From: Citromicrobium bathyomarinum
GTDB lineage: Bacteria; Pseudomonadota; Alphaproteobacteria; Sphingomonadales; Sphingomonadaceae
Length of the DNA: 64,000 nt
Reading direction: 5' to 3'
Assembly: GCA_001306305.2 (NCBI GenBank)
Contig: CP155577.1
Span: 806,001 to 870,000 of the forward strand
The notes beneath the pieces are model-generated. The model made no database searches. It saw only the letters and a list, made by a program, of their open reading frames with translations, and was not told the DNA's origin. The position numbers were made by a program, and so were the translations under genes. Positions 5,452-58,843 of the stretch are shown piece by piece (the stretch's first letter is position 1; each line of letters begins with the position of its first letter).

Positions 5452-6120
5452 TCAGCTCGCGGGTGCGACGTCCTGCGGCTCATCAAGCACATCGGACTGC
5501 GCAGGGTCGCCTGCCGCGGGATCGACCGAGTCCACCGTCGCGCCCGCTGCCAGCACCCGGTCGATCACGCCCGCCTGCTGCACCTTGTTGAGCGCATCGA
5601 CGAAGGCGGCATCCCACATCTCCTCGAATCCGCTGTTCGAGAATTTCGCCAGAGTGCCCGAGCCCTCTGTCGTCAGCGTTTCCACCACCTTTGCGCTCTC
5701 GCGATCATAGAACTGCCATTCGACCTTGATATCGATCGTGCCTTTGAAGCCGTTGACCGAGGAGCAGATGTTGATCGCGGTCGGCGCCATCACCGCGCCC
5801 AGCAGGATGTCGCCCTTGTCGTCCGATTCCGCGGCAAACAGATCGTCCGAGTCGGAGACTACCGCGACTTCGCTGGTGCCCAGCGTGTCGGAAACCAGCC
5901 GGTCGTAACGCTCGAAATCCTGCGTCTTCTTTTCCTTGGGCAGCTCGATATTGCTCGGAAAGACGCACAGCGTGCCGCCCTTCACGCGCGCTTCGATCGG
6001 TGCGGTCTCGGTGTCGAGCACGACCTTGGCGAGTTGCAGCGATTTGCCTTCGGCGTGAGCCGAGGCGGGCACGGCCAATGCCACCAGCGCGCCCGCGAGC
6101 GCGCACTGACTGAACTTCAT
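5452..6120 (-). CDS. Exported protein of unknown function
   Basis: I do not recognise this 222-residue protein. It begins with a clear Sec signal peptide (residues 1-23, cleavage after ASAHA). The mature part is acidic with a predicted mixed alpha/beta composition and two cysteines in the mature part (TLCVFPSN and INICSSV), which could form a disulfide. The last 25 residues are Asp/Ala/Pro-rich. It has its own terminator and lies between ahpF and katG on the same strand, so a role in envelope oxidative stress is possible, but only location supports that. Confidence 0.7.
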   Translation of the reverse strand: MKFSQCALAGALVALAVPASAHAEGKSLQLAKVVLDTETAPIEARVKGGTLCVFPSNIELPKEKKTQDFERYDRLVSDTLGTSEVAVVSDSDDLFAAESDDKGDILLGAVMAPTAINICSSVNGFKGTIDIKVEWQFYDRESAKVVETLTTEGSGTLAKFSNSGFEEMWDAAFVDALNKVQQAGVIDRVLAAGATVDSVDPAAGDPAQSDVLDEPQDVAPAS

Positions 6121-6227
6121 ATTCGGATTTTCCCCCTGAACGATCCCGTCCGCGCCGAAGCCGGACGGGATCGAAAATACATCTGCCCGGAAAATCCGAC
6201 AAGCAAAATGCGTTGCAGGGGAGGGAC

Positions 6228-49966: not shown

Positions 49967-50026
49967 CGTGGCGATCCGACGATGCAGTGTGCGGTCAGGG
50001 CGCGCCCGGGCAGGGCGCGGATGCCA

Positions 50027-50647
50027 TCAGCTGCGCCCATTGGTCGGTTCGGCCAGACCATTGCCCGCTGCGACATCGTCCAGCTCTTCCAGAATCGCGC
50101 GGTGGGCGGTGTCGTCGTCGATCGACCGGCGCGGGATATCGCCATCGGCAAGCATCGCGTTGAGCGCGGCGCGGGCGCGGCCCACGCGGCTCTTGATCGT
50201 GCCGACCGCGCAGCCGCAGATATTGGCCGCTTCTTCGTAGGAGAAGCCACCCGCGCCCACCAGCAGCAGCGCCTCGCGCCGCTCGGGCGGCAGGGTCAGC
50301 AGCGCACGGTGCATGTCGGACAGGTGGATCGGCTCTTCCTGGCCCGCCGGGGCAGTCAGGATGCGTTCGGCAACGTTCTCGTCGTATTCGCCGCGAAAGC
50401 GGTTGCGGCGCATGTCGGTGAGGTAGGCATTGCGCAGGATCACGAAGGTCCACGCGCGCATGCTGGTGCCCGGCTCGAACCGCTCCTGCGCGGCCCACGC
50501 CTTCATCAGCGTTTCCTGCACGAGGTCGTCGGCCATGTCGGGCCTGCCGCACAGCCCGCGCGCAAAGGCGCGCAGGTGCGGAACCACGCCCGTCAGCTCA
50601 CGCTTGAACTCGACCGGATCGGCGGCGGGTGCGGGGTGCCCGCTCAT
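50027..50647 (-). CDS. ecfG: General stress ECF sigma factor EcfG
   Basis: This 206-residue ECF sigma factor has sigma2 at about 20-85 (RGLCGRPDMADDLVQETLMKAW, TSMRAWTFVILRNAYLTDMRR) and sigma4 at about 115-170 (LPPERREALLLVGAGGFSYEEAANICGCAVGTIKSRVGRAR). Its start overlaps the nepR stop (ATGA) and the pair sits divergent from a sensor kinase near phyR. That arrangement defines the alphaproteobacterial EcfG. It should recognise GGAAC-N16/17-CGTT promoters, four good matches to which lie in this locus. Confidence 0.93.
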   Translation of the reverse strand: MSGHPAPAADPVEFKRELTGVVPHLRAFARGLCGRPDMADDLVQETLMKAWAAQERFEPGTSMRAWTFVILRNAYLTDMRRNRFRGEYDENVAERILTAPAGQEEPIHLSDMHRALLTLPPERREALLLVGAGGFSYEEAANICGCAVGTIKSRVGRARAALNAMLADGDIPRRSIDDDTAHRAILEELDDVAAGNGLAEPTNGRS

Positions 50648-50856
50648 GACTTGCCACCGCCCTTGTCGGCGTCTTTTTCAGGATCGTCGAACTGAGCGAG
50701 CAAATCCTTGAAGCTGTCGGGAATCGGTTCGTCGACCACGGAGTCGTAAAGGCTTCGCAGGCTGTCCGCCCAGCGAGGCTCTTCCATGCTCGCGCCATCC
50801 TTGCCAGCGCCCTTGAGGTGCTGGCCCTGCGTATCCGGAGTGTGTTTTTCGTTCAT
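50644..50856 (-). CDS. nepR: Anti-sigma factor NepR
   Basis: This 70-residue protein starts at the ATG at 50856 and carries the NepR core LRSLYDSVVDEPIPDSFKDLLAQFD (two helices) with charged disordered ends. It sequesters EcfG until phosphorylated PhyR binds it. The upstream EcfG-type promoter (GGAAC at 50956-50952, CGTT at 50935-50932) predicts a leader of about 70 nt. A longer frame to 50973 would start above the promoter and is rejected. Confidence 0.9.
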   Translation of the reverse strand: MNEKHTPDTQGQHLKGAGKDGASMEEPRWADSLRSLYDSVVDEPIPDSFKDLLAQFDDPEKDADKGGGKS

Positions 50857-50929
50857 GCCTGTCGGCTTACATGGGGTATCGGTAGCCGAAACCCAAGCCT
50901 GCCCTTCCCATAATCGATCCAAGACAACA

Positions 50930-50956
50930 GGAACGTTGCTGCCCGCGCGTGGTTCC
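50930..50956. promoter_or_regulatory. Overlapping divergent EcfG-type promoters
   Basis: Minus strand: GGAAC (50956-50952), 16 bp, CGTT (50935-50932), driving nepR-ecfG. Plus strand: GGAAC (50930-50934), 16 bp, GGTT (50951-50954), driving the kinase gene. The two promoters share the same 27 bp, each -10 lying beside the other's -35. Confidence 0.85.
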
Positions 50957-51023
50957 CTTGCTAAATCCAGCATTCACCAGGCCGCCGGACGCGCGGCCCG
51001 AACGATATTCAAGCGGAGCAGTA

Positions 51024-52706
51024 GTGGCGTCCGATCCGACACTTCCGACACGGCGATTCAGGCGATGGCTGGTCCATTACCCCCGTGCCGTGCCGGTGGT
51101 AATCTTCCTGCTGATCACCGCGATCACTGCGCTGAGCGTCTATGCGATCGAACGCGGCGAGCGGCGGCGCGAGCAGGCGCAGCTCAACGAAACCGCGCAG
51201 GTGATTGCGTCCTCGCTGGACCGGCGGGTCAATACCAGCGGATCGTATCTGATCGCTGGCGCTGCTCTGATCAGCACGCTTGACCGGGTACCCGCCGATC
51301 TGTTCCGCCGCTTCGCCACCGAACTGCGCCTGGATGCCGATTATCGCGGGGCGGAGGGGATCGGCTGGGCGCCGATCGTGCCGAGCGGGCAGGTCGGCAG
51401 CTTCGAACGCATGGTGCAGGCCGATACCGGCGAGCCGTTCCGGATCACGCCGCGGCCCGAGGCAGGCAGCAACTTCGCGGTGCCGGTGACCTTTCTGGAG
51501 CCAATGAGCGAACGCAATGCGCGCGCGCTTGGCTTCGACATGTATTCCGAGGCCGTCCGCCGCAGCGCGATGCAGAAGGCGATCGAGACCGGTCGCCCGA
51601 CCGCGAGCGGCAGGATCGTCTTGGTGCAGGAAGGCGAAGGGCGCGATTCGGGCTTCATCATCTACATGCCCGTGTTCGAGCCGGGCACGCGCGACGAGTT
51701 GATCCGCGGCTTCGTCTATGGCCCGTTCAATTCGCAGGTGTTCCTCGATTCGGTGCTGACGCGCGAACTTGTCGGCCAGCGGGGCGTGCGGCTGTATGAT
51801 GGCGAGCCGGTTGCCGCCAATCTGGTCGCGGCGCACGCGCCTGGACGGCGGACCGGGCGGGTGATGCGGATCGAGGTCGATCTGGCCGATCGGCCGATGA
51901 CGGTGGAGGTGGAATCGGCACGCGGCGATGCGCTTTCGCTGCTGTCGATGATCACGCTGCTGTTCGGGATCGCGGTCGCCAGCCTTTCGATGCTGGTCGC
52001 ACGCCTGCTGACCCAGCAGGCGCATGAGGACCAGGCGGCGCTCGATTTCTATGCCGAGCAGAACTCGATCCGCAATTCCCTGACCCGCGAGCTTAACCAC
52101 CGGGTCAAGAACACGCTCGCCAATGTGCTGTCGATTGTCGCGCTCACCCGGCGACGGGCGCATTCTCTGGAGGATTTCGCCAGCGGGCTCGACGGGCGGA
52201 TTCGCGCCCTGTCCGCGACGCACGATCTGCTGACCCAGTCCGAATGGGGCACCACGCCGCTTCGCGCGGTGCTGGAGGCGGAGTTGGCGCCCTATGCCAA
52301 TTCCGCCGAATCGATCCTCAAACTCGAAGGGCCCGAGGTCGATCTTGCGCCCAATGACGCTCTGTCGTTCGGCCTCGCGATTCACGAACTGGCGACCAAT
52401 GCGTCCAAATATGGCTCCCTCTCGGTCGAAGGCGGGCAGCTCGATGTCACCTGGCACCAGTTGCGCGACAATCTGGTCGAGGTGCTGTGGCAGGAGCGCG
52501 GCGGGCCGACGGTACCGAGCGAGCGCCCGCGTGGGTTCGGCACCGAACTGATCGAGAAGATCGTCGCGCACGAGCTCAAGCACCCGGTCGAGCTCGACTT
52601 TGCGCCGCAGGGCGTGCGCTGCGTGCTGCGGGTGCCGGTGCGCAAGCCGACCGAGTTCAGGATGCGGGCGCGCAATCGCCCCGCCGGTGTGCAGGCGAGC
52701 GATTGA
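51024..52706 (+). CDS. CHASE-domain HWE/HisKA_2 sensor histidine kinase (PhyK-like)
   Basis: This 560-residue membrane kinase starts at GTG 51024, five bases after GGAG. An earlier GTG (50949) lies inside the promoter and is excluded. TM1 is at about 22-41, a periplasmic CHASE-like sensor at about 75-290 and TM2 at about 306-329. The HWE/HisKA_2 dimerisation helix has His359 in ELNHRVKNTLANV, and the ATPase N box is HELATNASKYG with Asn459. Its place opposite nepR-ecfG and close to phyR suggests it phosphorylates PhyR. Confidence 0.9.
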   Translation: MASDPTLPTRRFRRWLVHYPRAVPVVIFLLITAITALSVYAIERGERRREQAQLNETAQVIASSLDRRVNTSGSYLIAGAALISTLDRVPADLFRRFATELRLDADYRGAEGIGWAPIVPSGQVGSFERMVQADTGEPFRITPRPEAGSNFAVPVTFLEPMSERNARALGFDMYSEAVRRSAMQKAIETGRPTASGRIVLVQEGEGRDSGFIIYMPVFEPGTRDELIRGFVYGPFNSQVFLDSVLTRELVGQRGVRLYDGEPVAANLVAAHAPGRRTGRVMRIEVDLADRPMTVEVESARGDALSLLSMITLLFGIAVASLSMLVARLLTQQAHEDQAALDFYAEQNSIRNSLTRELNHRVKNTLANVLSIVALTRRRAHSLEDFASGLDGRIRALSATHDLLTQSEWGTTPLRAVLEAELAPYANSAESILKLEGPEVDLAPNDALSFGLAIHELATNASKYGSLSVEGGQLDVTWHQLRDNLVEVLWQERGGPTVPSERPRGFGTELIEKIVAHELKHPVELDFAPQGVRCVLRVPVRKPTEFRMRARNRPAGVQASD

Positions 52707-52781
52707 GTGGCTGCGAGCGGGCGCTAGGCCGCTCGCCGCTGCTCCAGTCAGCGGGAAGCCTTGTCAGAGGTCAGAGGAGAC

Positions 52782-52818
52782 AAAAAAAGGGCGCCGCAAT
52801 CGCGACGCCCTTTTCTTT
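52782..52818. terminator. Bidirectional terminator between kinase gene and phyR
   Basis: AAAAGGGCG (52785-52793) and CGCCCTTTT (52806-52814) form a 9-bp stem. A-runs on the left and T-runs on the right allow termination of both convergent genes. Confidence 0.85.
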
Positions 52819-52837
52819 TGTTCGATGAGACGTTCCC

Positions 52838-53641
52838 TCAGGCGGAGGCGTTCTCGTGGCTGGCGTTGAAGAACAGCGCTTGGCTGATCGCCGCGCGCAC
52901 GGTGGCTTCCTGGAACGGCTTGGTGACCAGATAGGTCGGCTCAGGCCGGTCGCCGGTCAGCAGCCGCTCTGGATAGGCGGTGATGAAGATCACCGGCACG
53001 CTGCCGATGCTGAGAATATCGTCCACCGCATCGAGGCCCGAGGAGCCATCGGCGAGCTGGATATCCGCCAGCACCAGACCCGGGGTCTTCTCCGCGACCA
53101 CCTGCTGCGCCTGCGTGCGCGTGGCGGCGGTGCCGCAGATGTCGTGGCCGAGGCCGCGCACGAGGTCTTCCAGCTGCATCGAGATCAGCGGCTCGTCTTC
53201 GATGATGAGCACGCTGGTTGCCGATTCGCGATCGATCTCGGCGATCGCATCCTGGACCATCTTTTCGACGTCCTGCGGCGCGATCTCCATTATTTCGGCC
53301 GATTGCTCGATCGTGAAATCTTCCAGCGTGGTCAGCAGCAGCGCCTGCCGGTTGAGCGGCGTGACGGTTTGCAGTCTATCGGCGCTGATCTGGTCGGGCA
53401 GGTCGGCATTGTCCGCCCCACGGTCTGACACTTCGAGATAGGCGCTCGACCACACCTTGTTGAACGCCCGGTACAGCGGCACGCGGCCACCTTCGAGCGA
53501 GGACTTGAGCTCGTCGTCGGCCAGCGCCGCTTCGAGCGTGGCGCGCACGAAGGCGTCACCGGTCTGCTGCGATCCCGTCAGCGCGCGCGCGTAGCGACGC
53601 AGATAGGGCAGGTTTGCAGCGACATTTTCTCCAATGGACAT
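52838..53641 (-). CDS. phyR: Anti-anti-sigma response regulator PhyR
   Basis: This 267-residue protein has an N-terminal sigma-like domain (about 1-137) that mimics EcfG and binds NepR. The receiver domain (about 143-262) has acidic residues in LIIEDEP, phospho-acceptor Asp193 in LVLADIQLADGSSG, Thr221 in FITAYPERL and Lys241 in LVTKPF. The ATG at 53641 is chosen because a perfect EcfG-type promoter lies 31-55 bp upstream and inside the longer frame to 53731. Phosphorylation releases EcfG from NepR. Confidence 0.95.
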   Translation of the reverse strand: MSIGENVAANLPYLRRYARALTGSQQTGDAFVRATLEAALADDELKSSLEGGRVPLYRAFNKVWSSAYLEVSDRGADNADLPDQISADRLQTVTPLNRQALLLTTLEDFTIEQSAEIMEIAPQDVEKMVQDAIAEIDRESATSVLIIEDEPLISMQLEDLVRGLGHDICGTAATRTQAQQVVAEKTPGLVLADIQLADGSSGLDAVDDILSIGSVPVIFITAYPERLLTGDRPEPTYLVTKPFQEATVRAAISQALFFNASHENASA

Positions 53642-53671
53642 GTAGTATCTTTCCCGTCTGAACCTCTCGCC

Positions 53672-53696
53672 AACGTCCGGCGTCGAGGCAGGTTCC
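53672..53696 (-). promoter_or_regulatory. EcfG-type promoter of phyR
   Basis: On the minus strand GGAAC (53696-53692) is separated by 16 bp from CGTT (53675-53672), an exact match to the EcfG consensus. The phyR ATG is about 30 bp downstream. Confidence 0.88.
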
Positions 53697-53783
53697 AAGC
53701 CTGCGCAAGTTCGCTTGTAAAGCGCCAGCAAGGTGGTTTCGATGACGTGCTGGTGAAAGGGGCGAAAAAAATTTGCGGGGCGA

Positions 53784-53808
53784 GGAACCGGCTTCGGGCC
53801 GGGGCATT
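53784..53808 (+). promoter_or_regulatory. EcfG-like promoter for the candidate small RNA
   Basis: On the plus strand GGAAC (53784-53788), 16 bp, then CATT (53805-53808), one mismatch from CGTT. A start near 53815 is predicted. A weak sigma-70-like alternative (TTGTAA at 53715-53720 with TTCGAT 17 bp later) would give a longer RNA. Confidence 0.5.
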
Positions 53809-53814
53809 CTCCCT

Positions 53815-53908
53815 ATGTCACCGCCGAGACCCCCCTCCCGTCCAAGCGGCCGGTGATACGATCCCGAAGGCCTTCGTTCCGCACCATGCGGATCGAAGGC
53901 CTTTTTTT
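53815..53908 (+). ncRNA. Candidate general-stress small RNA (GsrN-like)
   Basis: No plus-strand gene exists here, yet a strong plus-strand terminator is present. The predicted transcript of about 94 nt has a 5' hairpin closed by TCACCG (53818-53823) and CGGTGA (53851-53856). The large loop contains CCCCCCTCCC (53830-53839), a C-rich anti-Shine-Dalgarno-type seed. A 3' terminator hairpin ends in T7. Caulobacter GsrN, an EcfG-class (sigmaT)-dependent RNA with a C-rich loop acting on katG mRNA, has this architecture. Identity with GsrN is inference from position, promoter type and structure. Confidence 0.6.
53867..53908 (+). terminator. Strong rho-independent terminator with no upstream CDS
   Basis: AAGGCCTTCGTTCCGCA (53867-53883) pairs with TGCGGATCGAAGGCCTT (53887-53903) with one mismatch and a 3-nt loop. 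T continues to 53908, making seven T in all. No T-run exists on the minus strand, so it does not serve the neighbouring minus-strand regulator gene. Confidence 0.88.
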
Positions 53909-53971
53909 GTGCCTGAGGGTGGTGTGCGAAAGGCGCAGTCCGGGCGTGCCGGGCGGCGCCCGGAAGAACGC

Positions 53972-54397
53972 TCAGTCGCGCTTGAGGCGGGAGAGGAAGG
54001 AGGGCCGCTCGGGCTTGCCGACATGCGCCAGCAGGTCGTCGAAATCGTACGGTTTACCCAGCACCGGGCCCAAGTCTGCGACGTGGGCGGGTATCTCGTC
54101 AGGCGATCCGGTCGCGAAGATGACCTTGGGCGCATTGGGGCCGAGCGCCCGCAGCACTTCCGCAATTGCCCAACCATCGCCGCGGTCGGCCAGATGGACA
54201 TCGAGGATCACGGTCTCGACGTCGCCATCGCGCAGCCGCTCGATCGCCTGCGATGTCGTCGCGGCGATCGCGATGTCGCGCGCGCCCGCCTCGATCAGCG
54301 CGTCTTCCACCGCGAGGGCAAGGACGGCATCGTCTTCGACAATCAGGACAGGCCCGTAATTGCGGGTCTTTCGGGGGCTGGCGCCGTCCGGCGGCAT
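53972..54397 (-). CDS. FATG-motif single-domain response regulator (SdrG/MrrA-like)
   Basis: This 141-residue protein is only a receiver domain: acidic pocket in VLIVEDDAVL, phospho-acceptor Asp66 in VILDVHLADRG, Thr96 in VIFATGSPDEIP, and Lys115 in VLGKPYDFDD. The FATG element is the mark of the FAT-GUY receivers, which include SdrG of Sphingomonas and MrrA of Caulobacter, known to promote the general stress phosphorelay. Its own EcfG-type promoter and its position beside phyR support the same role here. Confidence 0.85.
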   Translation of the reverse strand: MPPDGASPRKTRNYGPVLIVEDDAVLALAVEDALIEAGARDIAIAATTSQAIERLRDGDVETVILDVHLADRGDGWAIAEVLRALGPNAPKVIFATGSPDEIPAHVADLGPVLGKPYDFDDLLAHVGKPERPSFLSRLKRD

Positions 54398-54448
54398 TCG
54401 TACGTATCCTTCGCGAGGCCGGGGGTCGGCAAGTGGGGATATGCAGCA

Positions 54449-54474
54449 AACGCCGCGGGTGTCCCTCGCGTTCC
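54449..54474 (-). promoter_or_regulatory. EcfG-type promoter of the single-domain regulator
   Basis: On the minus strand GGAAC (54474-54470) is followed after 17 bp by CGTT (54452-54449). The predicted start lies about 45 bp before the ATG at 54397. Confidence 0.8.
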
Positions 54475-54491
54475 GGAGCGAATGCGCGCGC

Positions 54492-55649
54492 TTACAGATC
54501 CTTCTCGTAGATCACGTATTCGCGGTTGATGCTGCTGTCGATCGCGTCTGCGATGGCGACCATTCCCTGATTGTCTTCGAGGATCCAGCCGACCTCGCCA
54601 CGATCCGAATGAAACACGCTGCTCGCCGACTGCCTGATCTGGCTGATCATCATGAAAGCGAGCTGGCTGGCGAGGCGGGAGTTATGCAGCCGCTTGCGCA
54701 CACCCATCAGCGGCACCCGCATCCCTGCGTGCATGGGTTTGCGCAGCCAGCGCAGGGTCGCAAGCCAGCCGAACGGGAACAGCTTGCCGCGCGTGCGCGC
54801 GAACAGATCGTTGACGTTGGGCAGCGTCATCATGAAGGCGACCGGTTCGCCGTCCAACTCAGCGATGCGGTTGATTTCCGGGTGGATCAGCGGGCGCAGC
54901 TTCTTGCCGGTATAGGCAACTTCCGCCTCGGTCAGCGGCACGAAGCCCCAGTTCTGCGACCATGCATCGTTGAGGATTTCGAGAACGATTTCGATCTCGC
55001 TCTCGTAATTGTCGAGGTCGATCGGGCGCACGCGGATCCGGTTATTGCGCTCTCCCGACTTGACGATCCGTTGCACCAGTGGGGGGAATTCCCGAGCGAC
55101 GGGCAGGTCGTAGGTATAAAGGCGCTTGGCCGGTGCATAGCCCGCCCCCGCGATGTAGCCGGCATAGGGTTCGGGATGGTGGCCCATCATGATCATCGGC
55201 GAATGATCCTGCCCGCGCACCAGCAGGCCGGGTTCTTCCCAGATGGACATGGAGATTGGGCCGAGGACCCGGTTCATCCCCTGCGTGCGCAGCCAGTCCT
55301 CCGCCGCTGCGAGCAGCGCGCTGGCAACCGCTTCATCCTCGGCATCGAAATAGCCGAACATGCCGGTGCCGGGGCCCATGCCCTGTTCGGCGGGCACCTC
55401 CAGCGCCAGCCGGTCGATATGCGCGCTGATCCGGCCGACCGGCTTGCCGCCGCGATGGGCGAGGAACAGTTGCGCTTCGGCATGGCCGAAGAACGGGTTC
55501 TTGCCCGGATGGATGAGTTCGAGCTGTTCGGCCCGCATTTGCGGAACCGAGTGCGGCAGCTGCGCGGCGAAGCGGCGGCCCAAGTCGACGAAGGCCGCAC
55601 GGTCGCGGCTTTTCGTCGCATCGAGCGGCGAGACGGTGATGTCGGTCAT
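54492..55649 (-). CDS. Conserved GNAT-like protein of unknown function
   Basis: This 385-residue soluble protein has an N-terminal GNAT-like part (LFLAHRGGKPVGRISAHID, then MGPGTGMFGYFDAEDEAVASALL) and a second related half (ELDGEPVAFMMTLPNVND). The two halves suggest a tandem acetyltransferase fold, as in the YghO-like family. Substrate and pathway are unknown to me. The upstream 334 bp is gene-free and must hold its promoter. It ends about 95 bp before the ATG of the stress-regulator gene. Confidence 0.65.
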   Translation of the reverse strand: MTDITVSPLDATKSRDRAAFVDLGRRFAAQLPHSVPQMRAEQLELIHPGKNPFFGHAEAQLFLAHRGGKPVGRISAHIDRLALEVPAEQGMGPGTGMFGYFDAEDEAVASALLAAAEDWLRTQGMNRVLGPISMSIWEEPGLLVRGQDHSPMIMMGHHPEPYAGYIAGAGYAPAKRLYTYDLPVAREFPPLVQRIVKSGERNNRIRVRPIDLDNYESEIEIVLEILNDAWSQNWGFVPLTEAEVAYTGKKLRPLIHPEINRIAELDGEPVAFMMTLPNVNDLFARTRGKLFPFGWLATLRWLRKPMHAGMRVPLMGVRKRLHNSRLASQLAFMMISQIRQSASSVFHSDRGEVGWILEDNQGMVAIADAIDSSINREYVIYEKDL

Positions 55650-55983
55650 AAATCTCTGGGCATTTCAGCCGGCCGGCCTGCTGGTGAGCGCAAGATGGGC
55701 CATGATGGTGTGGTGCTGGAAAGCGCTGACGATCGGCTCACGCAAGGTTGTGCGATCGAGATCGTGGCTGCGTTTGCGGAACGGCAGATCGGCTTGGGCC
55801 TTCGCGGTGTGCGGTCCCGACACGGGCAAATTCCTGTTTTGCGTCCCCTTGGGTGTTTCTACGCTTTTGCGAGAAGGTTGCAACACCAACACAAACGGCC
55901 CGAACCTCGCGTTTAGCGCGACAGATGGCCGTTGGGGGCAACCTTCTGAATGCGCGGTGCATTTAGGGATTGTTGCAAACCAG
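55650..55983. other. Gene-free 334-bp region
   Basis: The region lies between the end of the lptF-lptG-GNAT operon and the start of the 54492-55649 gene, both on the minus strand. It contains the palindrome GTTGCAAC (55877-55884) and a small dyad TCGCG/CGCGA (55907-55921). Open frames on both strands look non-coding (Cys/Arg-rich with no ribosome-binding site). No clear terminator or EcfG promoter was seen. Confidence 0.5.
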
Positions 55984-56514
55984 TCAACCAAGCACGCAGA
56001 CCATTGCGATGCGCGCTACGGCCGGCATGCCCCGCTCCGCCTCGGCCGCGAGTTCGCCTGCGAGACGCGGGTTGTCGGCTGCGGCGAGCTCGACGAAGCC
56101 CATCCGGCGATAGAACGGCGCGTTCCATGGGACGTCGGCGAATGTCGTAAGCGTGATCGCGGTGAAGCCCGAATTGCGCGCGTCGATCATGCATCCGCGC
56201 AGCAGCGCGGATCCGATCCCGCGCCCTTGCCAATCGGGATGCACACTGAATTCGTATGCATGCAACTCGCGCCCGAAGGGTTCGGTCGCCAGAAAGCCAA
56301 CAATCTGCTCGCTGGCCTGCGCCACAAGGCAATGGCCGCGCACGATATAGCGCTCCAGTCGATCGACCGGCACGGTTGCCTGCCCGGCGACCCACGCCAG
56401 CCCATCGAAGCGTTCGAACATCCTGCCCGCCGCGCGCTCGATCGCGGGCATCGCTGCCGCATCGTCGCGCTGCGCGAGGCGGATGTGCCAGTCGTCGGTC
56501 TTTGCGCCGCTCAC
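55984..56514 (-). CDS. GNAT-family N-acetyltransferase
   Basis: This 176-residue protein starts at GTG 56514, overlapping the lptG stop (GTGA), so it is coupled to lptG. The acetyl-CoA loop is seen in YEFSVHPDWQGRGIGSALLRGCM (QGRGIG), with WNAPFYRRMGFVEL near the end. Substrate is unknown. The very long open frame in this phase (to 57744) is a shadow across lptG. Confidence 0.85.
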   Translation of the reverse strand: MSGAKTDDWHIRLAQRDDAAAMPAIERAAGRMFERFDGLAWVAGQATVPVDRLERYIVRGHCLVAQASEQIVGFLATEPFGRELHAYEFSVHPDWQGRGIGSALLRGCMIDARNSGFTAITLTTFADVPWNAPFYRRMGFVELAAADNPRLAGELAAEAERGMPAVARIAMVCVLG

Positions 56515-57608
56515 TCTTCGGTGCGAACGAGCACGGTCTCGCCGATCATCAGGAACAGCAGGAAGGGTGCCCATGCGGCGAGGAAGGGCGGATAGCCCCC
56601 GAAATCGCCCATTGCGAGCGCGGCGTTGTCGATCACGAAATAAGCAAAGCCGAGCGCCATGCCGATCAGCGCGCGCATGAACAGCTGACCCGAACGGGCG
56701 AGGCCGAAGCCTGCGACCGCGCCCAGAATGGGCATCAGCACCGCGGCGAGGGGGCCCGAAATCTTGTGCCAGTAATTCGCTTCCAGCTCTTCCGTGTCGC
56801 GGCCGGCCTGCCGATAGGCCTCGATAGAGCTGCCCAGCTGCCAGAACGGCTGTGTGGTGGGGTCGATCTCCTGCAGCTCGATCGTGGCGGGGGTGATGCC
56901 GGGGGCAACGGTCAGCTGGCTCGGCTGCGCCAGGCTCGCCGTGCCGACGGTGAATACGCTCGGGTTCTGCATAGCCCAGCCATCGGGCCCGTGAACCGCC
57001 ATCGGCGCATCGACCTTCTGGGTAATCTCGGCCGTCGGACTGCGCCTGTAATAGGTCACATCGCGCAGGGTCGGGGCGGGGCCGCCACCTGAATAGCTGC
57101 GCGCGGTCAGGATGTTCTGCCCGTCCTCGAGATAGATGCTGCCCTTGCTTTTGGGCTTGTCGGGCAGCGCGCCGAATTCGGTCGCCTCCCACGCGGTCAG
57201 CTGTGCGGTCGCGCGAGTCACCACGCGTTCGTTGAAGGCGAAGCTGATCCCCGCCACCAGCAGTGCGGTGACGATCAGCGGGGCGAGCACCTGATGCGCA
57301 GACAGGCCCGCCGCCTTCATCGCGATCACTTCGCTGTTCTGATTGAGCGTGACCAGCGTGATGATCGTCGCCAGCAGCACCGAATAGGGCAGAAACCGCT
57401 GGATAAGCATCGGTACGCGCAGCGAGGCATAGAGCCACAGATCCGCCTCGGTATTGCCCGGGACCTCCAGGATCTGGCCGCTGTTGGACAGCAGGTCGAG
57501 CATCATCAGCACCAGTACCAGCATCACCAGCACCGCGAAGATGCGCAGTGAGAACATCTTGGCAAGGTACAGCGTCAGCGTGCGCGACGGGAAGAAGTCG
57601 AACGTCAT
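56511..57608 (-). CDS. lptG: LPS export permease LptG
   Basis: This 365-residue inner membrane protein has three N-terminal helices (about 20-125), a periplasmic jellyroll domain (about 130-270) and three C-terminal helices (about 280-360). The N-terminal region SEVIAMKAAGLSAHQVLAPLI is the coupling-helix element for the LptB ATPase. With LptF it forms the permease that extracts LPS. It follows lptF by 11 bp. Confidence 0.93.
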   Translation of the reverse strand: MTFDFFPSRTLTLYLAKMFSLRIFAVLVMLVLVLMMLDLLSNSGQILEVPGNTEADLWLYASLRVPMLIQRFLPYSVLLATIITLVTLNQNSEVIAMKAAGLSAHQVLAPLIVTALLVAGISFAFNERVVTRATAQLTAWEATEFGALPDKPKSKGSIYLEDGQNILTARSYSGGGPAPTLRDVTYYRRSPTAEITQKVDAPMAVHGPDGWAMQNPSVFTVGTASLAQPSQLTVAPGITPATIELQEIDPTTQPFWQLGSSIEAYRQAGRDTEELEANYWHKISGPLAAVLMPILGAVAGFGLARSGQLFMRALIGMALGFAYFVIDNAALAMGDFGGYPPFLAAWAPFLLFLMIGETVLVRTEE

Positions 57609-57619
57609 ATCCTGGCCGC

Positions 57620-58843
57620 TCAGCTCGCCTGTTCGACGCGGAAGGCGTCGGCCCGGCGCTTGGGACGCAGCAGCTTGCCGATCCGTTTGACGATCTTGGC
57701 GAAGGCGCTTTCCAGCGCGCCGATTGGCTGGCCGCCGGGGACATGGGCGATCTGCCAGTACCACCACAGGATCAGCCCGGCGAAGATCGCGAACGGGCCC
57801 CACAGGCCCAGCGTCGGATCGACCCGGCCAAGCGCGGCGAAATCCTGCATGTACTGATTGACCTTGTGATAGGCGACCACGAGGATCACCGCGACGAACA
57901 CACCCAGCGCGCTGGTCGACCGCTTGGGCGGAATCGCCAGCGCCACCGCCAGTAGCGGCATGAACAGCATCATCGCCAGCTCCACCATCCGGTAGTTGAA
58001 GCTTGCCTGGCTGCCCAGGCGCTGGGCCTCGGTGGTCGTATCGCTCCACCCCATGCGGAGCAGTTCGGGCAGGATATACTCGCGCTCCGCCTCGCCCCGG
58101 GCGCGGAACTGCTCGATCGCGGGCAGGTCGATCGGCAGGTCGTGTTCGGTAAAGCTGAGCACGCGCGGGGTCTCGCCCGGCGGGTCCTGCACGATCGTGC
58201 CGTCGGACAGGCGCAGGATGATCGTGTCGGGATTGTCGCTGGTCGACAGGAACCTGCCCTCGCGCGCGCTGATCGAGAGGGTCTGTCCGTCCTCGGCGTT
58301 GATCCGTGCGAAAATGCCCTTGAGCTTGCGGCCGGAATCCTCGCTCTCTTCGATCCGCAAAGCCATACGGTCGGCCAAAGTGGTGAACTCGCCGACCTTG
58401 ATCGACGCGCCCAGCGCGCCTGAGCGCAGATCGAACTGCAACTCCTCGTAATAATATTTGGAGACGGGCTGGACGTAGAACACGATCGCCGCGTTGACCG
58501 CCATCAGCGCCAGCGTGATCGCGAAGGGCACCCTCAGCAGGCGCCCGTAGCCAAGGCCGACCGCGCGCATCACGTCCAGTTCGCTCGACAGGGCAAGCTG
58601 GCGGAACGCGAACAGGGTGCCCAGCAGCAGGCCGAGGGGGATCGCCAGCACAGCATAATCGGGCAGCAGCGTGCCGAGCATCTGGAACACCACGCCGACC
58701 GGCCCCCCCTCGGTCGACACGAACCGGAACAGCTTGAGCATCTGTTCCAGCATCAACAGCGTCGCGGCGAGCGCGAACACGCCGATCATCGGGACGATGG
58801 TCAGGCGAAAGATGTATCTGTCGAGACGCGAAGAGAAGGGCAA
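57620..58843 (-). CDS. lptF: LPS export permease LptF
   Basis: This 407-residue partner of LptG has the same three-plus-three helix layout, with LDRYIFRLTIVPMIGVF at the start and the coupling element SSELDVMRAVGLGYGRLLRVPF. The start is TTG 58843 behind GGGA; the next Met (residue 19) would cut the first helix. A cytosolic C-terminal tail (LLRPKRRADAFRVEQAS) is basic. lptB and lptC are not in the window. Confidence 0.92.
   Translation of the reverse strand: MPFSSRLDRYIFRLTIVPMIGVFALAATLLMLEQMLKLFRFVSTEGGPVGVVFQMLGTLLPDYAVLAIPLGLLLGTLFAFRQLALSSELDVMRAVGLGYGRLLRVPFAITLALMAVNAAIVFYVQPVSKYYYEELQFDLRSGALGASIKVGEFTTLADRMALRIEESEDSGRKLKGIFARINAEDGQTLSISAREGRFLSTSDNPDTIILRLSDGTIVQDPPGETPRVLSFTEHDLPIDLPAIEQFRARGEAEREYILPELLRMGWSDTTTEAQRLGSQASFNYRMVELAMMLFMPLLAVALAIPPKRSTSALGVFVAVILVVAYHKVNQYMQDFAALGRVDPTLGLWGPFAIFAGLILWWYWQIAHVPGGQPIGALESAFAKIVKRIGKLLRPKRRADAFRVEQAS

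Follow-up and report, generated by a model that had tools for sequence, protein, structure and literature searches.

Does the short interval between phyR and a single-domain response regulator gene of Citromicrobium bathyomarinum harbor an RNA gene of its own and, if so, how does that RNA relate to GsrN of Caulobacter? The EcfG sigma factor is freed when PhyR captures NepR, and the general stress response of Alphaproteobacteria has been studied mostly as transcription, GsrN being the best-worked RNA arm that we encountered. Having analyzed a 64,000-nt stretch of contig CP155577.1 (hereafter, the window) along with related genomes, we consider it likely that the interval holds a free-standing EcfG-controlled small RNA gene of the general stress response, acting most likely by loop pairing. 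Judged from sequence comparison, the RNA family is real and very likely functional.

An earlier sequence-only reading of the window had named the flanking genes as phyR and a single-domain receiver gene, both on the minus strand, and Pfam matches bear this out (Table 1). The response regulator is probably a member of the general stress regulon, since it has a GGAAC-N17-CGTT promoter of its own, and the true start of nepR probably lies downstream of the listed one.

Table 1. Features of the general stress locus in the window, with the basis of each assignment.
Feature	Position	Strand	Basis or remark
A/T tract, possible UP-like element	53765..53774	+	upstream of -35 box; sequence; function inferred
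EcfG-type promoter of the RNA, GGAAC-N16-CATT (reads GGAACC)	53784..53808	+	sequence and motif scan
Predicted small RNA, ~94 nt	53815..53908	+	5' end inferred from promoter spacing; fold, alignment
5' hairpin with C-rich loop	53817..53857	+	fold and covariation
Proposed pairing site (seed) CTCCCGTCC within loop	53835..53843	+	conservation
Linker, contains GATCCC (53860-53865)	53858..53865	+	conservation
Intrinsic terminator, 17-pair stem with one mismatch, then T run	53866..53908	+	sequence, fold, covariation
phyR, divergent from the RNA	52838..53641	-	Pfam PF22029, PF22233, PF00072
phyR promoter, EcfG-type, GGAAC-N16-CGTT	53672..53696	-	motif scan
Single-domain response regulator, convergent with the RNA	53972..54397	-	Pfam PF00072
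EcfG-type promoter of response regulator, GGAAC-N17-CGTT	54449..54474	-	motif scan
EcfG-type promoter before nepR-ecfG	50932..50956	-	motif scan; overlaps plus-strand match 50930-50954
nepR and ecfG	50027..50973 (nepR 50644-50973; ecfG 50027-50647)	-	Pfam NepR, Sigma70_r2, Sigma70_r4_2
CHASE-HWE histidine kinase of stress locus	50949..52706	+	Pfam PF03924, PF07536

Direct reading confirms the plus-strand GGAAC-N16-CATT element noted in the sequence-only reading. Within the 64 kb, GGAAC-N16-SRTT occurs four times (shuffles have a mean of 1.3 and reach at least four in 5 out of 100) and GGAAC-N17-SRTT once (shuffle mean 1.2). All five matches fall inside 50930-54474, that is, within 3.5 kb of the general stress locus, where they precede nepR (an overlapping pair, one per strand), phyR, the response regulator and the RNA.

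The promoter is retained across relatives. GGAAC is found before the RNA in all 94 aligned copies, 60 of which are loci that came from queries containing the promoter or the phyR neighbourhood and 34 from a promoterless model (three of the latter repeat other sequences in the set). It sits 32-33 nt before the first helix of the model in 93 copies and 42 nt before it in L136, where the model match is shifted. The -10 box reads CATT in 73 copies, CGTT in 13, CGTA in 5, GGTT in 2 and TGTT in 1. Over 86 distinct copies with 16-nt spacing, the information per column amounts to 2.00 bits at -35 and 1.72 at -10, against 0.36 in the spacer; T is modestly preferred (59-72%) 11-13 nt before the -35 box in 86 distinct copies. 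For Sphingopyxis granuli, the sections cited here of PMC7083833 describe up to 14 EcfG -10 boxes, of which CGTT is the commonest and TGTT, CATT and GGTT come next; both EcfG proteins transcribed a CATT promoter in vitro, EcfG2 doing so 38.5-fold better, and CATT was weaker than CGTT in both in vitro promoter backgrounds. These four boxes account for 89 of our 94 copies, and the CGTA of the other five is absent from those named in the same sections. Short of experiment, the match to the Sphingopyxis boxes is the best evidence for the predicted control by EcfG. The conserved unit, its covariation, the invariant GGAAC and the EcfG-type -10 boxes make the earlier proposal of an EcfG-controlled small RNA well supported at the level of sequence.

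In the mechanism that we propose, EcfG would start transcription at the predicted GGAAC-N16-CATT promoter under stress, and RNA polymerase would stop at the terminator. The product, roughly 94 nt long, would expose CCCCCCUCCCGUCC on its 5' hairpin. Through its core CUCCCGUCC, the loop would most likely act by pairing in trans with purine-rich stretches (complement GGACGGGAG) within the 5' leaders or ribosome-binding sites of stress mRNAs, and so alter their translation or stability. From the conserved elements we infer transcription, EcfG dependence and trans pairing of the loop.

On the DNA itself, the 5' hairpin TCACCG...CGGTGA can be read directly, 53818-53823 pairing with 53851-53856; its full loop in the window copy is AGACCCCCCTCCCGTCCAAG, which contains CCCCCCTCCC at 53830-53839. 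The 6-bp hairpin with a C-rich loop described earlier is thus present in the window, but the consensus helix is longer, at 10 pairs. The description of the terminator holds: a 17-bp stem (53866-53904) interrupted by one U-U mismatch and followed by T7 at 53902-53908, three of these T pairing within the predicted stem. A simple terminator scan listed none in 50000-58000, the terminator of the RNA included, presumably owing to the stem mismatch. The fold of the whole RNA is far more stable than those of shuffled sequences (z -5.8, 0 of 200 equal or better). Taken alone, the first hairpin is moderately stable (z -1.8, 7 of 200 shuffles equal or better), so that covariation supports it better than stability does.

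Sequence, structure, covariation, promoter conservation and locus could all be established computationally. In the alignment of 94 copies (A2; 91 distinct rows), which was fitted to the model and is therefore biased in its favor, standard pairs make up 97.2% of cells. Double-sided changes affect 15 of the 21 pairs and 152 cells, compared with 36 cells expected by shuffling; none of 500 shuffles is as high on any covariation measure, and slid controls drop to 30-56% paired cells. Five of the ten pairs of the 5' helix change on both sides, with 97.4% of cells paired, as do 10 of the 11 consensus pairs of the terminator helix. A smaller alignment (A1, 56 rows) left out copies at least 95% alike and four with an ill-defined T run (L015, L017, L063 and L096), which were restored in A2. 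Ten of the 21 pairs keep pairing through double changes in an unfitted MAFFT alignment of 56 rows.

The loop is conserved better than the terminator stem. Its core CTCCCGTCC is identical in 86 of the 94 copies and survives the loss of the long C-run in L143 and L144; it is truncated in L135, and seven probable Novosphingobium copies carry another C-rich loop. The GATCCC linker is present in 84 copies. With a core so widely identical and retained even where the C-run is lost, the loop is held by selection, while the terminator stem drifts with compensation. Termination is less clear in 15 of the 94 copies, as they have no run of four T after the stem (L063, L096, L130, L131, L133 and L136 among them, and four of the seven loop variants); such copies may end the RNA in another way or possess a processed end.

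Searching 40 genomes with a 146-base query gave matches in 17; these include the window's own genome and 9 of 9 of its genus. With nhmmer, the RNA unit was found in 96 of 98 loci (80 found by PhyR and 18 by the 146-base query); no match was obtained for L018 and L042, one of them a 31-nt chance match, the other a contig starting 107 bases before phyR. A covariance model (R1), built on 56 sequences of the RNA alone with the promoter left out, matches 148 of 396 Sphingomonadales genomes at E <= 1e-3, and 38 of its match places (18 + 20) were opened. Of these genomes, 135 match at E <= 3.7e-10, all in the window's family. Among the 13 weaker ones, seven (L129-L134, L136) show an EcfG-type promoter with neighbouring phyR and ecfG and are taken as real, and four (L137-L140, 29.7-30.7 bits), which have no such promoter, were discarded. 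Although ecfG and phyR are neighbours of L137, the match there is a plain terminator directly after a stop codon. The total is 142 of 396 genomes (135 + 7), a count that leaves out the weak G307 and G049. Some genomes with a strong copy present a second, weaker match of 29.6-37.9 bits (G316:C35:2474-2549, G381:C1:210837-210905, G324:C1:921641-921758 and G180:C10:127866-127952), possibly a paralogue or a chance hit.

Across the class, R1 matches 6 of 385 alphaproteobacterial genomes. Four belong to the window's family and the other two, which are weak (L151 and L152, 33.9 and 33.4 bits), show no GGAAC promoter and no phyR nearby and were discarded as well, so that nothing convincing was found outside the family in this set. 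The distribution is narrower than the term sphingomonad of the earlier reading: in 30 phyR loci of a Sphingomonas-like genus no such RNA turned up, a strongly C-rich stretch behind a GGAAC-type promoter being absent from all of them (a test that also failed to flag the GsrN-type locus L157 described below); a looser test of the same 30 loci returned only two GCAAC sites, both in L174 and with no clear structure. In the covariance comparison across Sphingomonadales that had been put forward as a check, hairpins, C-rich loop and promoter are conserved. Given the family matches of R1 and none in the Sphingomonas-like loci, the RNA seems to belong to Erythrobacter-type genera plus one genus that is probably Novosphingobium. 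If our reading is true, the Erythrobacter-Novosphingobium group has its own RNA arm of the general stress response.

How this RNA relates to GsrN was judged from the published description of the latter. According to the sections cited here of PMC5869019, Caulobacter crescentus GsrN (CCNA_R0081) measures ~106 nt and depends on sigma-T; a C-rich loop in its 5' part base-pairs with the first seven nucleotides of the katG mRNA, and KatG translation is increased; endonucleolytic processing gives a stable 5' isoform, and Hfq stabilises the full-length RNA. Its relatives typically lie beside general stress genes (ecfG, nepR, phyR), C. crescentus being an exception. The present RNA is alike in promoter type (GGAAC-N16/17-CGTT, CATT in the window copy), in its position near ecfG, nepR and phyR, in its length of ~100 nt, in its 5' hairpin with an exposed C-rich loop and in its intrinsic terminator (15 of 94 copies without four T). 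It differs in the loop core, CUCCCGUCC here against a GsrN loop CCCCCGAC that is inferred from the target motifs in that paper, and katG targeting is not supported for it. Calling it a GsrN counterpart would be fair as a functional analogy.

Descent is another matter. Diverged in sequence, the RNA could be a true homologue (orthologue) of GsrN, as the shared promoter type, locus, length, C-rich loop and terminator would suggest, but the near confinement of R1 matches to the window's family, GsrN BLASTn matches that the cited sections of PMC5869019 give as limited to Caulobacteraceae, and a loop not of the CCCCCGAC type make orthology rather unlikely. A loop of that type is found instead in an RNA of different build. 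Two genomes of another alphaproteobacterial family carry, next to phyR, this GsrN-type RNA (L220, 2310, plus strand; L157, 1558, minus strand) with EcfG-type promoters (CATT and CGTT), a long branched stem, the loop GACGCCCCCCCGAC and a terminator-like hairpin. It resembles the present RNA in its promoter, its proximity to phyR and a run of C, which in L220 and L157 is a C7 run in an internal loop; it differs in lying on the phyR strand, downstream of phyR, and in its long branched stem and GACGCCCCCCCGAC. A GsrN-type loop pattern, itself a guess from the target motifs in the same paper, gave nine matches in 8 of 385 alphaproteobacterial genomes, only L157 being by phyR.

Tentatively, the RNA may not descend from GsrN at all: different alphaproteobacterial lineages may each have brought an RNA with a C-rich loop under EcfG control next to phyR on their own, with a pairing core particular to the lineage (CUCCCGUCC here, CCCCCGAC in the GsrN type). 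If such independent origins were true, the general stress response would repeatedly evolve a post-transcriptional arm directed at G-rich leaders of mRNAs. The defined loop core, promoter and ends allow direct tests of convergence versus descent. According to a figure legend in PMC5869019, a gsrN-like gene is not apparent in Erythrobacter litoralis; the copy with its promoter that we find in the genome labelled E. litoralis SNB-035 (L061) qualifies this statement, although the strain behind the legend may be a different one.

Resemblance to other described RNAs is looser. CcsR or 'cuckoo' RNAs of Rhodobacter and other Alphaproteobacteria have C- and CCUCC-rich loops resembling anti-Shine-Dalgarno sequences, with RpoH-type control and a DUF1127 context, whereas the promoter and neighbours of the present RNA are of another kind. 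At gathering thresholds, Rfam returned only a tRNA for the window. Below them, CC1840 (RF01521; 23.4 and 30.8 bits against 50), ar14 (RF02344; 24.5 and 22.9 against 58.8) and 6C RNA (RF01066; 31 against 47) have in common with it two hairpins, a C-rich loop and a terminator-like end, and appear to share this architecture only. Caulobacter CC1840 was rejected as a counterpart on its scores of 23-31 bits versus a threshold of 50, and its model matched none of 289 genomes, only the named Caulobacter control. The best Rfam E-values concern the terminator stem alone (mir-8186, 0.021; ctRNA_p42d, 0.0011, at 30.3 of 50 bits). The family is absent from Rfam 15, and its kind, an EcfG-controlled RNA with a C-rich loop, is already known; among the matches listed in the open-access literature, no paper on an EcfG-controlled RNA in this group was found.

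Which mRNAs the loop might reach was explored by predicted pairing. The sequence-only reading had suggested the ribosome-binding sites of katG (AAGGAG) and ahpC (GAGGAG), an idea that the energies do not favor: at -11.0 and -10.9 kcal/mol they rank 27 and 28 beside 44 window genes (median -11.95), slightly below the middle, in a ranking that ignores accessibility and takes its starts from a rough codon-usage picker. For katG, 80 nt around the start codon were considered, against the pairing of GsrN with the first 7 nt of the mRNA. Both genes were rejected as ribosome-site targets, with pairing energies unremarkable and the katG mRNA 5' end being what GsrN uses in the cited sections of the GsrN paper. 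The strongest pairing among the 44 leaders is that of an asparaginase-family gene (31695, -26.4), followed by a secreted protein gene (6120, -26.3) whose predicted site lies inside an inverted repeat. In three genomes, ACGGGAG-N3-10-ATG matched 23, 18 and 33 times, control patterns 14, 13 and 23 times, in what is a weak test requiring an exact 7-mer next to ATG. Among products of at least 30 residues behind the 74 ACGGGAG sites (73 stretches), a single protein recurred between genomes; it is 99% identical in the two that have it, and we take it for a recently shared gene.

Alternatively, the main role of the RNA could be feedback on the stress circuit through pairing with the leaders of phyR, nepR or ecfG. 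Of six locus genes, phyR does have the leader with the strongest pairing on average (-18.0 kcal/mol; mean z -0.72 in 79 loci), and GACGGGA in the window's phyR leader can pair with the loop; the z value is small, however, and the element is unconserved, reading for instance CACGGAAGGGG in Qipengyuania. For nepR, the stretch before the gene in the window reaches -24.9 kcal/mol and would rank third beside the 44 genes, with its start coordinate off, and L019, a Citromicrobium bathyomarinum contig whose PhyR shares 99% identity with that of the window, has a z of -3.2, against a mean z of -0.26 for nepR (76 loci) and -0.14 for ecfG (77 loci). The kinase, response regulator and GNAT-like genes have mean z values of 0.52, 0.15 and 0.50 (73-79 loci per gene, mononucleotide shuffles throughout). 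With at most a slight phyR signal, and a nepR signal that is strong in the window and L019 but unconserved, autoregulation of the six locus genes was set aside, and feedback as the main role is improbable.

The conserved layout of the locus counts in favor of a free-standing RNA gene. In all 79 phyR loci, which were chosen by phyR, the RNA is encoded on the opposite strand, upstream of phyR, and reads away from it; independently of any phyR query, phyR is near the RNA in 14 of 14 promoterless-model loci (L129-L136, L141-L146), a count that leaves out the 451-base loci L194-L213. The response regulator lies on the far side of the RNA, convergent with it, in 73 of the 79 (every locus in which it was detected). 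The order GNAT-like gene, response regulator, RNA, phyR, kinase, nepR, ecfG holds in 70, and in the other nine at least one protein is undetected or off the stretch. The probable Novosphingobium copies with a variant loop, seven in number, all have the RNA between phyR and an ecfG gene; their -10 box is CGTT in six and TGTT in one.

The distance between phyR and the RNA is 949-1094 nt in 49 of the 79 loci, room enough to ask whether the RNA is chiefly a 3'-UTR product or the terminator of a neighbouring gene and no independent RNA gene. A Crp/Fnr-type gene does lie between the two, just upstream of the RNA and on its strand, in L027 (2612-3358), the only one of the 49 wide-gap loci tested for an intervening gene, and in L141 (2084-2905), which is of another genus. 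Against this, the RNA is present in the remaining 30 loci, where, as in the window, only 136-453 nt separate it from the divergent phyR; GGAAC in 94 of 94 copies would be unneeded, and conservation is higher in the loop than in the terminator stem, which drifts with compensating changes. We regard this origin as very improbable. That the region encodes a 13-residue peptide (frame ATG TCA CCG CCG AGA ... in the window copy) is scarcely credible, for the start codon is ATG in 32 of 94 copies, TTG in 14 and GTG in 1, these 47 frames give 34 different peptides, C-runs of 3 to 8 among copies with the loop core shift the frame between them, and the stem covariation fits RNA and not codons; the frame being unconserved, the earlier remark that no plus-strand gene explains the terminator is upheld. 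A free-standing RNA gene under predicted EcfG control remains the reading we prefer.

Elsewhere in the window there is a peroxide-defence cluster of a katG-like peroxidase, a catalase and ahpC-like and ahpF-like genes, the last two named from sequence and domains. It includes gene 5452-6120, for which Pfam gave no match. Between this gene and the ahpF-like gene, at 6120-6180, lies an inverted repeat, GATCCCGTCC..GGACGGGATC.
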